A stretch of DNA of 49,463 bases from Rhodospirillaceae bacterium (lineage in GTDB: Bacteria > Pseudomonadota > Alphaproteobacteria > Bin65), in NCBI GenBank assembly GCA_009840595.1, contig VXNK01000054.1, forward strand, positions 1 through 49,463, read 5' to 3'. A program made the position numbers and the translations under genes. Of this stretch, positions 1 to 44,718 are shown in pieces. The notes under the pieces were generated by a model. The model did no database searches, was not told where the DNA came from, and saw nothing but the letters and a program-made list of their open reading frames with translations. Each line of letters begins with the position of its first letter. Position 1 is the stretch's first letter.

Positions 1-140
1 CCCCCCCCCCCCCCCCCCCCCCCCCCTTTTTTTTTTAAATTACCCGCCCCCCACCGATATCACCCCGCGTATGTGCGGCGGCTGGTTCTTTTGTTAAAAC
101 CCCCCCCCCCTCCCCCCCCCCCCCACGGGGAGGGGGACTC
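1..140. other. Homopolymer-rich contig edge, no gene
   Basis: The window opens with 26 consecutive C, then 10 T, and has a further C-rich run at about 101-125. Nothing codes here. Such long mixed homopolymers are unlike the rest of the window and look like a low-quality assembly end rather than biology. About 60 further bases lie between this and the first gene end. Confidence 0.7.
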
Positions 141-10246: not shown

Positions 10247-11083
10247 GTGTACGCAGCAGCAAGACGGAGCCTGCCGGCGGCTGCGGCAATGGCGTTGGCC
10301 GCCTGCGCGACTCAGGGCGATGCCAATGGCGGCAACGGCCTTTACGATCCTTTCGAAAGGGTCAATCGCGCAACCTTCGAATTCAACATCGCTTTGGACG
10401 ATGCCCTCGGCAAGCCGATCGCCCTGTCCTACCGGACGGCGTTTCCCAAGCCTGTCCGGGACGGGATCCGGAACGTCGCCGACAATCTCTATTCGCCGGT
10501 TACCTTCGTTAACGATCTGTTGCAGGGCGAATTTGCCCGCGCCCGGATCACCCTGACCAGATTCTTCATCAACACGACAGCGGGAATCGGCGGCATCGCC
10601 GACGTGGCGAAGGATATCGGCATGCCCGGCCACAGGGAGGATTTCGGGCAGACCCTGGCGGCCTGGGGACTCGGTCCCGGCCCGTATATCGTCGTGCCGT
10701 TTCTCGGGCCGCAGACGACGCGCAATCTGGGCGGCCGGGCGGTCGATATCGGCGTCAGCCCGTTCAGCTATGTGCTGGCGGCCCACGACGTGGAATGGGT
10801 CGGGTTTGCCGTAACCGCGATCAATGCCGTCGACCAGCGCGAGCGGCTGATCGAAGCGGTCGACGGTCTGAGAAAAACGTCGCTCGATTTCTATGCCGCC
10901 GCGCGAAGCAGCTACTGGCAGGCGCGCCTCGCCGAAATCCACAACGGCCGGCTGCCCCCTGCCGTTCCGGGCGACGACGATGTCGATATCGATCTCGACG
11001 GCGACGAACTCGAGGCGGATCCGGACGGCCCGCCGCCGAACCGCAGAAGCAACGACAACCGCGTTGCAGCGAAGGTCCGATGA
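10247..11083 (+). CDS. mlaA: MlaA (VacJ) outer-membrane lipoprotein
   Basis: A 278-residue MlaA-family lipoprotein of the Mla pathway, which removes misplaced phospholipids from the outer leaflet of the outer membrane. Seen: a signal peptide ending in a lipobox with Cys20 (LAAC), then YDPFERVNRATFEFN, RNVADNLYSPVTFVNDLLQG, RFFINTTAGIGGIADVAKDIG, DFGQTLAAWGLGPGPYIVVPFLGP and a Tyr-rich helix near 205-225, all family landmarks. The tail from about 240 is strongly acidic (GDDDVDIDLDGDELEAD), which is unusual. GTG 10247 is the start; AGGGGGG lies 7-13 bp upstream. The stop overlaps the mlaC ATG. Confidence 0.93.
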   Translation: MYAAARRSLPAAAAMALAACATQGDANGGNGLYDPFERVNRATFEFNIALDDALGKPIALSYRTAFPKPVRDGIRNVADNLYSPVTFVNDLLQGEFARARITLTRFFINTTAGIGGIADVAKDIGMPGHREDFGQTLAAWGLGPGPYIVVPFLGPQTTRNLGGRAVDIGVSPFSYVLAAHDVEWVGFAVTAINAVDQRERLIEAVDGLRKTSLDFYAAARSSYWQARLAEIHNGRLPPAVPGDDDVDIDLDGDELEADPDGPPPNRRSNDNRVAAKVR

Positions 11084-11802
11084 AACCCGTCTGCAGCCAC
11101 GGCAACCCGAACGCGATGACGACCCCTTCCGGAGCCGGCATACGGCCCTCCGCAGCCGGCACCGGTCTGCAACATCTGCGCCGCACCGCGATCGCCGCCG
11201 TGCTGGCGATCGCCGGCGCCCTCTCGCCGGGCGCCGCCGGGGCGGCGGACGCGCCGTCCGCCCTGGTCGCAAACGGAAAGTCGATTATCCGTTCCCTGTC
11301 GCATTCGGTTTTCACCCTGCTGCGCGACGAGAGCGACCGCCGCAAGCAGGAAGCAACCTTCCGCACGCTTTTTGCCATGTATTTCGATGTGCCGCGGATT
11401 GCGCGTTTCGTACTGGGCCGGGCGGCCTGGTCGAAGGCCACGGCCGACGAAAGGGCGCAATTCCTCAACCTGTTCCAGCAATATGTCGTCAGGGTCTACG
11501 CCGTGCAGCTGAGGCGCCACAGAAAGGGCAAATTCGAGATCGTCGCCGCCGGACCGGACCGGAACGGCGTTTTCGTCACCAGCAGGATGGTGGGCCTGCG
11601 CAGCGGACGACCGTTCCACATGAAATGGCGCCTGCGCCCGTCCGGCGGAACGCTGAAGGTGCGCGACATGGTGTTCGAGAATGTGTCCATGTCGATCAAC
11701 CAGCGCCGGGAATTCGCCTCGGCCTACCGCCGCCATGGCGGCACCATGGCCGGCCTGCTCCGGGCGATCCGGACCAAGATGGCGGAGCTGGACCGCCAAT
11801 AG
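11080..11802 (+). CDS. mlaC: MlaC-type phospholipid-binding periplasmic protein
   Basis: A 240-residue MlaC/Ttg2 family protein, the periplasmic shuttle that carries phospholipid between MlaA and the inner-membrane MlaFEDB transporter. Seen: an N-terminal signal sequence with hydrophobic core at about residues 38-52 ending in AAGAAD; then the MlaC fold blocks FRTLFAMYFDVPRIARFVLGRAAWSKATADERAQFLNLFQQYVVRVYA and the C-terminal LKVRDMVFENVSMSINQRREFAS. ATG 11080 overlaps the mlaA stop; a second Met 12 codons on could also serve. The rest of the transporter is not in the window. The TAG stop lies inside the first unit of a 14-bp tandem repeat. Confidence 0.9.
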   Translation: MKPVCSHGNPNAMTTPSGAGIRPSAAGTGLQHLRRTAIAAVLAIAGALSPGAAGAADAPSALVANGKSIIRSLSHSVFTLLRDESDRRKQEATFRTLFAMYFDVPRIARFVLGRAAWSKATADERAQFLNLFQQYVVRVYAVQLRRHRKGKFEIVAAGPDRNGVFVTSRMVGLRSGRPFHMKWRLRPSGGTLKVRDMVFENVSMSINQRREFASAYRRHGGTMAGLLRAIRTKMAELDRQ

Positions 11803-11867
11803 GCCCCGGGCAATAGGCCCCGGGCAATAGGCCCCGGGCAATAGGCCCCGGGCAATAGGCCCCGTGC
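11798..11867. repeat. 14-bp tandem repeat, 5 units
   Basis: Five head-to-tail copies of AATAGGCCCCGGGC. Four are identical; the fifth has one change. The mlaC stop codon is inside unit 1. It is non-coding and one of four 14-bp arrays in this window with unrelated unit sequences. Likely made by slippage; a function is not evident. Confidence 0.95.
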
Positions 11868-14120: not shown

Positions 14121-14195
14121 GCCGCTCCGGTCGGAATGACGGGACGGGTTGGACGGGGCGTTCATGACGAATCATGACATTTCCTGACACATCCC

Positions 14196-14265
14196 GGGAC
14201 CGTCATCCCGGAACCCCCATCCCGGAACTCCCATCCCGGAACTCCCATCCCGGAACTCCCATCCC
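14196..14265. repeat. 14-bp tandem repeat, 5 units
   Basis: Units of 14 bp with consensus GGAACTCCCATCCC: a diverged first unit (14196-14209), one with a single change (14210-14223) and three identical units to 14265. Non-coding, within the repeat zone. Confidence 0.9.
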
Positions 14266-14286
14266 GACCGGGCGCAAACCCCGCAC

Positions 14287-14464
14287 CGTCATTCCGACCG
14301 AGCGAAGCAGCCTGCCCCATCGGCTTCGCTCAGGGCGGGCTCTGAGCGAAGTCGAAGGGAGCGGAGGAATCCCGACTCGATCCCGACACCGGGAACCCGG
14401 ACGCCAGCGACGGGATTCCTCCACTCCGCCCCGGATTGAATCCGGGGCTCCGGTCGGAATGACG
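14287..14464. repeat. Dispersed inverted-repeat element, copy A
   Basis: Bounded by the 14-bp inverted ends CGTCATTCCGACCG and CGGTCGGAATGACG. Inside are GCGGAGGAATCCCGACTCGATCC (14362-14384 region), its imperfect inverse GGGATTCCTCCACTCCG, a CCCCGGATTGAATCCGGGG hairpin, and an extra hairpin CTTCGCTCA...TGAGCGAAG near 14326-14353. Copy B at 41991-42141 shares ends and core but lacks the extra hairpin. A diverged partial copy ends at 14128-14141 with the same right end. The whole can fold as a long nested stem. Confidence 0.85.
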
Positions 14465-14670
14465 GGTGGGGTTTGCGGTTTCGGTGTCCGGTTCGGAACG
14501 GCGGACGGGGCGGAAAACGGGGCCGCCATGACGAAACATGACATTTCCTGACACATCCACCGTCCCTTGCCCCGACCGGGCGGAATGGCGGGAGAGAACG
14601 AAGAAAGGAGCGCCCACGACGAATCATGACGAATCATGACATTCCCTGACATGCCGGAACCCGGCGGCCG

Positions 14671-16338
14671 TTACCGGATCGCGAAGCCCTCGTAGCCTGC
14701 GGCGGCGATTTCGGCGCAGCGGGCGGCGTAGGCGGGGTAGCCGCCGATATAGGGCATGAAGACTCGCGGCTTGCCGGGGATGTTGGCGCCGACATACCAG
14801 GACGAGCAGGTCGAGCGCAGGGAGGCGTCGGCCAGTTCGTTGACATGGCCGACCCAGGCGTCCTGGGCGGCGCGCTCGGCCTCGATGACGCCGGCGCCGC
14901 GCTCGCGCAGGGCTTCGATGCAGTCCGAGACCCATTCGACATGCTGCTCGATCGACGGCATCATGTTGGTCAGCACCGAGGGGCTGCCCGGCCCGGTGAT
15001 GGTGAACAGGTTCGGGAAGCCGGCGACCGCCAGGCCGAGATAGCTGCGCGGGCCGGCCTCCCAGGCCTCGCGCAGGGCCAGGCCGCCGCGGCCGCGGATG
15101 TCGATGCGCTTGAGCGTGCCGGTCATGGCGTCGAAGCCGGTGGCGAAGACGATGGCGTCGGCTTCGATCTCCTCGCCGCCGTTCGCTTCATCCCCGACCG
15201 CTACGCCGGCTTCGGTGATCGCCCGGATCGGCCGCTCGACGATGTCGATCAGGCGCACGTTGGGGCGGTTGTAGGTCTCGAAATAGCCGGTATCGACGCA
15301 CAGCCGCTTGCAGCCGATCACGTTGGTCGGCATCAGCTTGCGCGCGGTCTCGGGGTCGCGAACGGTTTCGCGGATCTTGGCGCGCACGAAGTCCGCAGCG
15401 GTCTCGTTGGCCGCCGCGTCGTACAGCAGGTCTTCGTAGCTCGCCATGAAGGTGAGCCCGCCGGTCTCCCAGCGCCGCTCGAATTCCGCCGTCCGCGCCT
15501 CCGGGCTGTCGGCGAGCGCGGACGGCCGGGGCAGGTCGACCAGGAAGCAGCCGAAGCGCGTCTTGGCCTCCTCGCGCAGCGCCCGGTAGTCGGCCTTGAC
15601 CGCGGCGACCTCGGCCGCGCCGAGCGGGCGGTTCTGCGCCGGCACGGAATAGTTCGCCGTGCGCTGGAACACGGTGAGCTGCGCGGCCTGTTCGGCGATC
15701 GCCGGGATCGACTGGATGGCCGAGGAGCCGGTGCCGATCACGGCGACGCGCAGGCCGGTGAAATCGACCTCTTCATGGGGCCAGCGGCCGGTGTGGTAGG
15801 TCGCGCCGCGGAAGCTGTCGCGGCCGGGGATGTCGGGCAGGTTGGCGGTCGAGAGGCAGCCGGTCGCCATGATGCAGAAGCGCGCCGTGACCCATTCCGG
15901 CGCGCCGCCCGCCGGCTCCAGTCGGACCCGCCACAGGCCGGCGGCCTCGTCCCAGTGCGCCGCCGCAACGCGGGTGTCGAAGCGCATGTCCGGCCACAGG
16001 GCGAAACGGTCGGCGACATGGTTGGCGTAGCGCAGGATCTCCGGCTGGACGGCGTAGCGCTCGGTCCACTCCCACTCCTGCTGGAGGGCCTCGTCGAACT
16101 GGTAGGAGTAGGACATGCTCTCGACGTCGCAGCGCGCGCCGGGATAGCGGTTCCAGTACCAGGTGCCGCCGACTCCGCCGCCGGCCTCGTAGACCCGCGC
16201 CCGGAAGCCGGCGCCGCGCAGCCGGTGCAGCAGATACAGGCCGGCGAACCCGGCGCCGACGATCAGGGTATCGAGATCGGGGGCGGGGATGCCGGAGGCG
16301 CGGGGATCGGGCGCGGCGGCGGGAGCGGCGTCGTTCAT
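14671..16338 (-). CDS. Type I Baeyer-Villiger/flavin-containing monooxygenase
   Basis: A 555-residue FAD- and NADPH-dependent monooxygenase. Seen: FAD-binding GAGFAG at residues 28-33, GGTWYWNRYPGARCD at about 57-71, the Baeyer-Villiger fingerprint FRGATYHTGRWP at 176-187 (FxGxxxHxxxWP), NADP-binding GTGSSA at 202-207, and the late ATGFD motif. This fits the cyclohexanone-monooxygenase-like group that inserts oxygen next to ketones; the substrate is unknown. ATG 16338 is chosen; the frame upstream runs through a 14-bp repeat. The final 22 bp of the gene are duplicated exactly 1000 bp downstream at the end of the DUF2779 fragment. Confidence 0.92.
   Translation of the reverse strand: MNDAAPAAAPDPRASGIPAPDLDTLIVGAGFAGLYLLHRLRGAGFRARVYEAGGGVGGTWYWNRYPGARCDVESMSYSYQFDEALQQEWEWTERYAVQPEILRYANHVADRFALWPDMRFDTRVAAAHWDEAAGLWRVRLEPAGGAPEWVTARFCIMATGCLSTANLPDIPGRDSFRGATYHTGRWPHEEVDFTGLRVAVIGTGSSAIQSIPAIAEQAAQLTVFQRTANYSVPAQNRPLGAAEVAAVKADYRALREEAKTRFGCFLVDLPRPSALADSPEARTAEFERRWETGGLTFMASYEDLLYDAAANETAADFVRAKIRETVRDPETARKLMPTNVIGCKRLCVDTGYFETYNRPNVRLIDIVERPIRAITEAGVAVGDEANGGEEIEADAIVFATGFDAMTGTLKRIDIRGRGGLALREAWEAGPRSYLGLAVAGFPNLFTITGPGSPSVLTNMMPSIEQHVEWVSDCIEALRERGAGVIEAERAAQDAWVGHVNELADASLRSTCSSWYVGANIPGKPRVFMPYIGGYPAYAARCAEIAAAGYEGFAIR
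14672..14693. repeat. 22-bp exact repeat (partner at 13672-13693)
   Basis: TACCGGATCGCGAAGCCCTC followed by GT occurs at 13672-13693 and again here, exactly 1000 bp apart and in direct orientation. Both copies are the 3' end of a minus-strand reading frame (last seven codons encoding EGFAIR and the stop). Points to a recombination or copying event. Confidence 0.9.
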
Positions 16339-16370
16339 GGGGCGGCAGTCTCGCCGAACCGGGAGCCCGG

Positions 16371-16414
16371 TCAAGTCCTTGGGGTCAAGTCCTTGGGGGG
16401 TCAAGCCTTTGAGG
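16371..16414. repeat. ~14-bp tandem repeat, 3 units
   Basis: Units TCAAGTCCTTGGGG (16371-16384), the same with two extra G (16385-16400), and a diverged third copy TCAAGCCTTTGAGG (16401-16414). Non-coding, directly upstream of the monooxygenase start on the minus strand. Confidence 0.85.
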
Positions 16415-38914: not shown

Positions 38915-39747
38915 GCCGCCCTTCCGGTTCGTTCGGGGCCCGTCCGTTCGGGACCCGTCCGTTCGGGGCCCGGCCGTTCGGAACCGCGGTCCGCGCGGCG
39001 CCGGTCGCGCGCGATATCGAGAAAGACGTCCTCCAGGTTGGCCCGGCCGTAGCGCCGGATCAACTCGGCCGGGCTGCCCTCGTCGACGATCCGGCCGGCG
39101 CGCATCATCATCACCCGGCTGCACAGGCGCTCGACCTCGGCCATGTTGTGCGAGGCGAGCAGGATGGTGGCGCGGCGGGTATCCCGGTAGGCCTCCAGGT
39201 AGGTCCGGATCCGGTCGCCGGTATCCGGGTCGAGGGAGGCAGTCGGCTCGTCGAGCAGCAGGACGTCCGGTTCGTTGAGCAGCGCCTTGGCCAGCGCCAG
39301 CCGGGTTCGCTGCCCGGCGGAAAGCGTGCCGCTCGGCCGGTTCATGAAGGCGGTGAGGTCCAACTCTTCGGCCAGTTCGCCGATCCGGCGCGCCGGCCGG
39401 CGCAGGCCGTAGAGCCGGGCGTAGACCATCAGGTTTTCCCGCGCGCTCAGCCGCTTGGGCAGGTCGACATAGGGCGAGGAGAAATTCATCCGCGGCAGGG
39501 CGTCGTAGCGGCGTTTCAGCATGTCGATGCCGAGCACCGAAATCCGCCCCCGGGTCGGAAGGAGCAGGCCCAGGATCATGGAGATCGTCGTCGTCTTGCC
39601 GGCGCCGTTGCCGCCGAGCAGCGCTGCCGTCGTGCCCTCCGGCACGCTGAACGACAGGCGGTTGACGGCCAGCACGTCGTCGTAGGACTTGGTCAGTTTG
39701 GAAACCCGGATGGCTGCGGGCGGCCCTTCGGCCGGGGCCGCGCTCAC
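38911..39747 (-). CDS. ABC transporter ATP-binding protein
   Basis: A 278-residue ATPase of an ABC-2 exporter. Seen: Walker A GGNGAGKTT at 45-53 (first residue Gly rather than the common Pro/Gly-P), Q-loop region RMNFSSPYVDLPKRLSARENL, signature LSAGQ at 142-146, Walker B VLLLDEPTASLD at about 162-173 and the switch His in ASHNM. The C-terminus ends in a Gly-Pro-Glu-Arg-Thr repeat (GPERTGPERTGPERTG) from a 15-bp tandem DNA repeat. Coupled to the permease gene. Confidence 0.95.
   Translation of the reverse strand: MSAAPAEGPPAAIRVSKLTKSYDDVLAVNRLSFSVPEGTTAALLGGNGAGKTTTISMILGLLLPTRGRISVLGIDMLKRRYDALPRMNFSSPYVDLPKRLSARENLMVYARLYGLRRPARRIGELAEELDLTAFMNRPSGTLSAGQRTRLALAKALLNEPDVLLLDEPTASLDPDTGDRIRTYLEAYRDTRRATILLASHNMAEVERLCSRVMMMRAGRIVDEGSPAELIRRYGRANLEDVFLDIARDRRRADRGSERPGPERTGPERTGPERTGRAA
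38930..38981. repeat. In-frame 15-bp coding tandem repeat
   Basis: Units of CGTTCGGGGCCCGTC at 38930-38944, 38945-38959 and 38960-38974 with a partial fourth. It lies inside the end of the ABC ATPase gene and encodes a repeating five-residue GPERT tail, so the unit length keeps the frame. Confidence 0.9.
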
Positions 39748-41838: not shown

Positions 41839-42171
41839 GCCTCCTCCTCTTCAGAGGGGGAGGCCAGGTGGGGGTGGTGCGCCTCTGGCGGCGCTGCGCT
41901 GATCCCAAGTCCCCCTCCCCATGGATTCCTCTGCGAAAGGGGCACTGACCGAATCCTCCTCCCCTTGGATTCCTCTGCGAAACCCCTCGTCGTCATTCCG
42001 ACCGGAGCCACGGCCCGGCGGGCCGGGGCGTAGCGGAGGAATCCCGGCTCGATCCCACCCACAGGAAACCCGTAGTCCTGCGCTGAGATTCCTCCGCTGC
42101 GCGCCCCGGACCAAATCCGGGGCGCTCCGGTCGGAATGACGGGATGGGAGCGGACTTTCGCAGAGGAATCC
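41839..42171. repeat. Repeat zone with dispersed inverted-repeat element, copy B
   Basis: Shortly after regA lies a stem-loop GCCTCCTCCTCT-TC-AGAGGGGGAGGC (41839-41864). GGATTCCTCTGCGAAA occurs directly at 41923-41938 and 41967-41982 and inverted at 42156-42171. Between the inner pair lies copy B of the dispersed element (41991-42141), with the same CGTCATTCCGACCG / CGGTCGGAATGACG ends, GCGGAGGAATCCCGGCTCGATCC core and CCCCGGACCAAATCCGGGG hairpin as copy A at 14287-14464. No gene. Confidence 0.85.
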
Positions 42172-42797: not shown

Positions 42798-43136
42798 CTA
42801 CGGCGTCCGGGCCGCTTTCTCGGCGATGCCGGACGCGCCTTCGCGCCGCTCCAGTTCGCGCCACACCTGATCCGGCGTCACGCCGCAGGCCGCCCACAGC
42901 ACCAGCAGGTGATAGAGCAGGTCGGCGCTCTCGGCCGCCAGCGCGTCGGGGTCTTCCGCCATGGCGGCGAGGATGGCCTCGACCGCTTCCTCTCCGGTCT
43001 TCTTCGCCACCGCCGGAACGCCGCCGGCGAGCAGCCGGGCGGTCCACGAGGAGGCAGGATCGGCGCCACGCCGGCTCTCCACGGTCGCGAACAGCGCGTC
43101 CAGCACATGCTGCTTTTCGGGGCTGCTTGCGCTCAC
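42798..43136 (-). CDS. hisE: Phosphoribosyl-ATP pyrophosphatase
   Basis: A 112-residue HisE, performing the second step of histidine synthesis (PR-ATP to PR-AMP). Seen: the four-helix MazG-like fold with [37 protein letters not shown], containing the EExxE and ExxD metal-binding residues. It starts with GTG 43136, overlapping the hisF stop (GTGA). Length normal. Confidence 0.94.
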
Positions 43137-43969
43137 GCCGCCGCCTCCGCTTTCCGGATCTCCGCTGCCGGCCCCGCCGCGGGTTCCAGGTCCGCCCGGT
43201 GCGGGCGCACCGGCACGCCGGCAGCCGCCATGTGGGCCTTGGCCTCCGCGATCGTGAAGGTGCCGAAATGGAAGATGGAGGCCGCGAGCACCGCCGAGGC
43301 CCGGCCCTGCGTCACGCCTTCCACCAGATGGTCGAGGGTGCCGACGCCGCCCGACGCGATCACCGGCACCGGCACCGCATCGGCGATCGCCCGGGTCAGG
43401 TCCAGGTCGAAGCCGGCCTTGGTGCCGTCCCGGTCCATCGAGGTCAGCAGCAGCTCGCCGGCGCCGTAGTCCGCCATCCGCCGCGCCCAGCTGATCGCTT
43501 CGATGCCGGTCGGCGTGCGCCCGCCATGGGTGTAGATCTCGAAACCGCCGCCATTCGGACCGCTCGTCGCCCGCTTGGCGTCGATGGCGACCACGATGCA
43601 CTGGCTGCCGAACTTGTTGGCGGCTTCCTGCACGAATTCAGGCCGGTGTACGGCGGCGGTGTTGATCGAGACCTTGTCCGTGCCGGCGAGCAGCAGTTTG
43701 CGAATGTCCTCGACCTCGCGCACGCCGCCGCCGACGGTCACCGGCATGAAGCAGGAGGCGACCGTGCGGTCGACCACGTCGTAGATCGTGTCGCGGTTCT
43801 CGTGGCTCGCCGTGATGTCCAGGAAGCACAGTTCGTCCGCGCCTTCCCGGTCGTAGAGCTTCGCCTGCTCGACCGGATCGCCGGCATCGACCAGGTCGAC
43901 GAAGTTCACGCCCTTGACGACGCGGCCGTCCTTGACATCGAGGCAGGGGATGATGCGGGTCTTCAGCAT
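43133..43969 (-). CDS. hisF: Imidazole glycerol phosphate synthase cyclase subunit
   Basis: A 278-residue HisF beta/alpha barrel that, with HisH, makes imidazole glycerol phosphate and AICAR. Seen: N-terminal [20 protein letters not shown] with catalytic Asp11, the phosphate-site [18 protein letters not shown] with the second catalytic Asp near residue 135, [15 protein letters not shown] and [15 protein letters not shown]-terminal tail of about 20 residues is longer than usual. hisA, hisH and hisB, which normally precede it, are not upstream here; a methyltransferase gene is instead. Confidence 0.96.
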
Positions 43970-43972
43970 GCC

Positions 43973-44014
43973 GTCACCAGTGGGCCGTCACCAGTGGGTC
44001 GTCACCAGTGGGCC
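43973..44014. repeat. 14-bp tandem repeat, 3 units
   Basis: Three copies of GTCACCAGTGGGCC (the middle one ending TC), starting 4 bp upstream of the hisF start codon on the minus strand, where the ribosome-binding site would be expected. One of four non-coding 14-bp arrays in the window. Confidence 0.95.
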
Positions 44015-44097
44015 GGCGGCAGCGTTGCGCCCTGCCGCCGGACACGCGCGATCATGCGCGAGAGGCCCGGAAAAGGAAAGTCCGGCCGGGCGCGGCG

Positions 44098-44718
44098 TCA
44101 TTTCCCGCCCCGGTCCCCGGCAGGCGGCAGCGTTGCGGGGGCCGGGGCGGCGATCCCGGCATAGCGCTGCACGACGCGCGGCGTCGGCGCCGCTTCGTAG
44201 CCCTGCTCGAACGCCAGAAGGGTCAGAAGGTCGTCGAAGGCCGCCGGCAGTTCGCCGGGGCGGAGCAGGAAATCCGGGTTCCGCGGCCGGCCATACGCCT
44301 CGTTGCCGAGCATGAAGGTCTCGTAGATCAGCCGGCCGCCCGGCTTCAGCACCGCCGGAAGATGCGGCAGGAGCGGGCGGTGCAGATAGTTGCAGACGAT
44401 GGCGACGTCGAACGGTCCGGCCGCGCCGACGGCCTGCATCGCGTCCGCGGCGGCGCCGGCCTCCAGGTCGATCTCCAGTACCGCGATTCCGTCGTCTTCG
44501 GCCGCCAGGGCGGTCAGCGGGGTCGTCTCCCGGTCGACCGCCGTCACCCGCCAGCCGCGCTGCCGCGCCAGCCGGCTGTGGCGGCCCCTGCCGGCCGCCA
44601 GATCGAGAACCTGGCCGCCGCCCGCCGGCGCCCCGGGCAAGAAACGCGATACCCAGCGGCTTGGCGCTGGAAAAGCCGTTTCCGGGAGAGCCGTTTCCGG
44701 GCGGGCCGTTTCAGCCAT
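44098..44718 (-). CDS. Class I SAM-dependent methyltransferase
   Basis: A 206-residue methyltransferase of the TehB-like group. Seen: the SAM-binding GGGQVLDLAAGRGRHSRLARQRGWRVTAVDRE block (about residues 33-65), acidic motif LEIDLEAG, FDVAIVCNYLHRPLLP and LKPGGRLIYETF. The N-terminus holds a repeated ETALPETAFPAP from a 15-bp DNA repeat (44675-44712). ATG 44718 is preferred; an in-frame Met ten codons upstream is possible. Substrate unknown. It is divergent from the DUF1178 gene. Confidence 0.85.
   Translation of the reverse strand: MAETARPETALPETAFPAPSRWVSRFLPGAPAGGGQVLDLAAGRGRHSRLARQRGWRVTAVDRETTPLTALAAEDDGIAVLEIDLEAGAAADAMQAVGAAGPFDVAIVCNYLHRPLLPHLPAVLKPGGRLIYETFMLGNEAYGRPRNPDFLLRPGELPAAFDDLLTLLAFEQGYEAAPTPRVVQRYAGIAAPAPATLPPAGDRGGK

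Follow-up and report, generated by a model that had tools for sequence, protein, structure and literature searches.

Four tandem arrays with a 14-bp unit lie in a single stretch of 49,463 nucleotides, here called the window. An earlier note on this DNA had proposed that a shared mechanism sets their length, for example replication slippage or a repair or primase footprint. The question is therefore whether anything holds such units at 14 bp, or whether separate events agree in length by coincidence. The window is contig C149 of a 4.1-Mb genome in 168 contigs, and six congeners were compared with it. By HisF, the closest named records found were two bins, one of Rhodospirillaceae from a Spongia sponge and one alphaproteobacterial, so sponge-associated alphaproteobacteria are probably part of the genus.

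Tandem arrays of the window and neighbouring genes

Tandem Repeats Finder recovered the four 14-bp arrays essentially where the earlier note had placed them (Table 1), and they were real, unrelated in sequence and outside genes. When the non-coding DNA of the window was resampled with a first-order Markov model, no array reached the threshold used, so each array was far beyond chance. Tandem Repeats Finder gave period 15 for the two arrays that the note had called coding (38930-38981, 3.5 copies; 44674-44712, 2.6 copies), the second being coding if an upstream ATG is used. From the in-frame ATG just upstream on the minus strand, this array reads MAETARPETALPETAFPAP... The simple codon-usage gene caller chose a later start, and the array was accordingly counted as non-coding; a few gene-end arrays were misfiled in this way. 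Further genes near the arrays, encoding a sulfatase, an ABC ATPase and a methyltransferase, were confirmed with Pfam. The overlaps with gene signals held up as well: array 1 holds the mlaC stop codon (TAG, 11800-11802) in its first copy, and array 4 spans the hisF ribosome site and lies directly next to the hisF ATG (43969, minus strand).

Table 1. Arrays of the window and genes beside them, with the output of Tandem Repeats Finder on the window.
Feature	Coordinates	Strand	Description	Tandem Repeats Finder
Array 1	11797..11867	+	Unit CAATAGGCCCCGGG, 4.9 copies; mlaC stop in first copy	Period 14 at 11797-11864, 4.9 copies, 100%
Array 2	14190..14266	+	Unit about CATCCCGGAACTCC, 5.5 copies; within a dispersed intergenic repeat family	Period 14 at 14190-14266, 5.5 copies, 93%
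Array 3	16369..16414	-	Multiplied CTTGACC (-35-like) box 5' of the monooxygenase gene; spacings 14 + 16 bp	Period 14 at 16369-16398, strictly 2.1 copies; looser third copy 16 bp off
Array 4	43970..44015	-	Three hisF leader units GGCCCACTGGTGAC with GGTGA (Shine-Dalgarno-like motif), then GGC-ATG	Period 14 at 43970-44015, 3.3 copies, 93%
15-bp coding array	38930..38981	-	3.5 copies; near the 3' end of an ABC transporter ATPase gene	
15-bp array	44674..44712	-	2.6 copies; PETA-type pentapeptide, methyltransferase N-terminus if the upstream ATG is used	
mlaC (MlaC protein)	11080..11802	+	Pfam PF05494, E 4.9e-32	
FAD/NAD(P)-binding monooxygenase-like gene, downstream of array 3	14671..16338	-	Pfam PF13738, PF00743	
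hisF	43133..43969	-	Pfam PF00977, E 5.2e-87	

The window held six strong non-coding arrays with 7-40 bp units, four of them of period 14. The nominal probability of four in six at period 14 was about 0.006 on the genus spectrum and 0.001 on the smaller spectrum of the genome itself; for four in six sharing any one period it was about 0.02-0.03, before allowing for the coincidences open to a reader. Because the genome is about 84 such windows long and a reader could notice coincidences of many sorts, the agreement is unremarkable. The density of arrays was high (six in 6.5 kb of non-coding DNA, versus 1.2 per 10 kb in other sampled stretches of the same genome, where two was the maximum for a sampled stretch of up to 20 kb). 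Clustering occurs elsewhere in the genus, as a 12.6-kb contig of one congener (G003, contig C3, L130) carried ten strong non-coding arrays, far above the genus average.

Two other features of the window were observed. At 41914-41982, a non-coding 44-bp unit was partly duplicated (1.6 copies). The contig opens with 26 C and then a stretch of T, and a second C-rich run lies at 100-124 (window 1-124). Poly-C/G runs were also seen near the ends of other contigs of this genome and of a congener (G005; L098, L159, L155). Such runs probably mark breaks in the assembly or poly-G artefacts of the reads, or else genuine G-tracts at which assembly halted.

Unit lengths in the genus sample

Every period was scored by self-match runs at its lag (+1 for a match, -3 for a mismatch). 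This score favours no period, apart from missing two-copy arrays whose units are shorter than the threshold. The sample comprised about 2.4 Mb, namely 1.06 Mb of the same genome outside the window and about 1.36 Mb from four congeners (0.28-0.39 Mb each). At a score of at least 12, the non-coding arrays of the pooled sample numbered 9, 10, 24, 17, 21, 14, 2 and 8 for periods 10 to 17, respectively; at a score of at least 16, there were 5, 12, 7, 12 and 10 for periods 11 to 15. Period 14 was not in excess of the mean of periods 12, 13 and 15 among the sampled non-coding arrays (Poisson p = 0.30 and 0.27). The spectrum was a broad hump at 10-15 bp without a peak specific to 14, and lent no support to a length set at 14 bp. 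Above 15 bp the hump does fall off in these samples, and its lower edge is sharpened by detection limits. An early peak at 14 (8 of 30 non-coding arrays in 0.45 Mb, half of them the window's own) disappeared with the lag score and the larger sample. The earlier note had staked its proposal on an excess of 14-bp units outside genes in a genome-wide distribution. In the roughly 2.4 Mb sampled there was an excess over long periods only and none specific to 14, so the proposal of a length set at 14 bp was in substance contradicted. A search of the literature found no published unit-length spectrum for bacteria that fits.

In coding arrays the hump recurred, but almost exclusively at multiples of three, with 22, 46, 28 and 13 arrays at periods 9, 12, 15 and 18 for a score of at least 12. 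Among strong arrays, the unit was divisible by three in 48 of 49 coding versus 36 of 78 non-coding cases (Fisher p ~1e-10), which bears out the view that coding arrays preserve the frame. The lengths of 14 outside genes and 15 inside them are thus a single distribution without and with a frame filter, and the shared length of exactly 14 among the four arrays is mostly coincidence.

Array loci in related genomes

At the mlaC loci compared, array 1 was not present in any of the six congeners. Array 2 and its flanking repeat modules had matches at 38 places in their own genome, and the dispersed repeat around the array was rich in CATCCCG-like direct repeats. This intergenic family (window 14150-14660) consists of two modules, TGACGAATCATGACATTTCCTGACAC and CGTCATTCCGACCGAGCGAAGC..., with the same 38 genome matches, and is possibly a REP- or MITE-like element.

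At the array 3 locus, CTTGACC was found exactly 37 bp before the monooxygenase ATG in six species, with a conserved block, TTCGG.GA.ACTGCC, behind it. This arrangement would fit a sigma-70-type promoter with CTTGAC as the putative -35 box. The box occurred once in three congeners, three times in the window's genome (G000; at -37, -51 and -67 from the ATG), four times in G002 and three times in G003. The spacings were 14 and 16 bp in the window, 14, 14 and 15 bp in G002, and 15 and 15 bp in G003. Three spacings at one locus argue against a 14-bp ruler. The array over this -35-like box is the sole mildly interesting detail among the four; the multiplied and otherwise strictly placed box amounts to a small natural experiment on promoter-element duplication.

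The hisF leader was single-copy in the five congeners that have it, and the window carries three 14-bp units followed by GGC-ATG, with the last copy retaining its position before the hisF ATG. The GGTGA in the unit matches the anti-Shine-Dalgarno end of 16S rRNA. In G003, the single-copy leader GGCCCACCGGTGAC-GGC-ATG (equal to GGCCCACCGGTGACGGC-ATG) contains GGC repeats 14 bp apart that bound the window's unit exactly. Slippage between these two GGC would yield the window's array, and the unit length would thus have been preset by the local sequence. By this comparison, array 4 is a lineage-specific triplication of the ribosome-site leader. An in-frame upstream GTG start for hisF within the array was ruled out, because the frame runs into a stop. 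Other duplications were seen at the same locus: G001 and G006 (L104, L105) have in common a 31-bp duplication with GGCGCTCGCGCATG upstream of hisF, and the G003 leader (L101) has separate 12- and 16-bp duplications.

Origin of the arrays and comparison with known repeats

Slipped-strand mispairing between short direct repeats is an established mechanism of tandem duplication. We consider it highly probable that the four arrays are independent, mostly recent minisatellite-type tandem duplications by slippage, with lengths that follow the spacing of local microhomologies and no 14-bp device. The tandem duplication would have come from replication slippage at places where two short direct repeats were by chance about 11-16 bp from each other, and later slippage would have expanded or contracted the arrays. 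The unit length would mirror local microhomology spacing within a general preference for 10-15 bp; genes would keep only multiples of three (12, 15, 9) and non-coding DNA all lengths. The independent origin of the arrays and slippage as the most likely mechanism, both put forward earlier, were supported, the slippage step itself being deduced. At hisF, the duplicated segment appears to be flanked by microhomology (GGC...GGC) with a leftover partial copy, as expected for slipped-strand mispairing. Homology beyond whole copies averaged 4.6 bp in perfect non-coding arrays with units of at least 12 bp (n = 36, including those of the window) and 3.4 bp in perfect coding arrays of the same unit size (n = 26), versus 0.73 bp in simulated blunt duplications. 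Such an excess is predicted by slippage between short repeats and agrees with it; leftover homology may also arise from later unequal copy changes. Slippage is the presumed mutational step, and selection would be the cause of the frame filter. Since the conserved spacing is retained by the gene-proximal copy, the arrays probably do little to expression. Weighing against this explanation are the window's richness in arrays and its four in six of period 14, and also the 10-15 bp hump itself, for which microhomology alone does not account, because microhomologies exist at all spacings.

This last point is where a broader length-selective process could enter, such as a limit to the loop size of slipped DNA, or a footprint of about 11-15 bp left by a polymerase or primase, that makes the genus-wide hump. 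It would be compatible with slippage at local microhomologies, and we regard it as possible but less likely than not. The hump at 11-15 bp appeared in both coding (12, 15) and non-coding arrays, accounted for 59% of the strong non-coding arrays with 7-40 bp units, and had a similar though sparse counterpart in other alphaproteobacteria (12 strong arrays, a small sample). However, at least 12 matched positions were needed for detection, so that a two-copy array with a unit under 12 bp goes unseen and the lower edge is sharpened. It is possible, though rather doubtful, that new tandem duplications throughout the genus, and perhaps in GC-rich alphaproteobacteria, obey a genuine preference for about 11-15 bp, with a polymerase or loop-size constraint setting minisatellite units; intergenic DNA would show this preference unfiltered and genes would show it through the frame filter. 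A fixed footprint (primase, repair or polymerase stepping) that sets 14 bp exactly in non-coding DNA is very unlikely. It would account for the period of the four arrays first noticed, among the six strong non-coding ones, but the spectrum is broad and 14 does not rise above its neighbours, the array 3 locus has spacings of 14, 15 and 16 bp, the window's other non-coding arrays have units of 11, 15 and 44 bp, and the hisF leaders of relatives hold arrays of 12, 16 and 31 bp.

The elements multiplied in arrays 3 and 4 are conserved ones (CTTGAC, found at -37 in six species, and GGTGACGGC before the ATG), so the copy number of a -35 box or a ribosome site might have been selected as a tuner of monooxygenase or hisF expression. 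We find this unlikely: the gene-proximal copy keeps the native spacing, which places the extra copies too far upstream for the same start, several congeners do without the arrays, and intergenic regions are so short that any array there overlaps some signal. An artefact of assembling a short-read metagenome bin is very unlikely. The window is one of 168 contigs and opens with artefact-like poly-C runs; however, the arrays span 30-77 bp, probably below read length, and the array 3 locus is also repeated in the assemblies of two other species. Slippage at local microhomologies replaces the claimed 14-bp device with a simpler picture, in which duplications of 11-15 bp arise at many places and are frame-filtered in genes. 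Outside genes, short tandem duplications fall on stop codons, -35-like boxes and ribosome sites.

The arrays resemble bacterial minisatellites, the variable-number tandem repeat loci of MLVA typing (e.g. in Brucella; PMC1513380), in having head-to-tail units longer than 9 bp with few copies each, and in a copy number that varies between related genomes, here between species with one genome per species. In the output of Tandem Repeats Finder, the units were tandem, of about 9 bp or more, in several copies and of high identity. Copy number differed between species from one to four for CTTGAC at the monooxygenase promoter and was one or three for the hisF leader. An excess of exactly 14 over neighbouring lengths in the sampled non-coding DNA, as a 14-bp-specific repeat class would have, was not found. 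The tandem repeats of archaeal Borg elements (PMC9879509), on a larger scale, are likewise recent and independent, with partial repeats at the flanks; units in open reading frames are divisible by three and most intergenic units are not. In comparison with these, the arrays of the window have fewer copies, lie on a bacterial chromosome and have GC-rich rather than A-rich units, which measure about 11-15 bp versus 18-21 nt in the Borg examples compared. Nothing tested sets the arrays apart from minisatellite or Borg-type loci, and they are ordinary minisatellite-type duplications.
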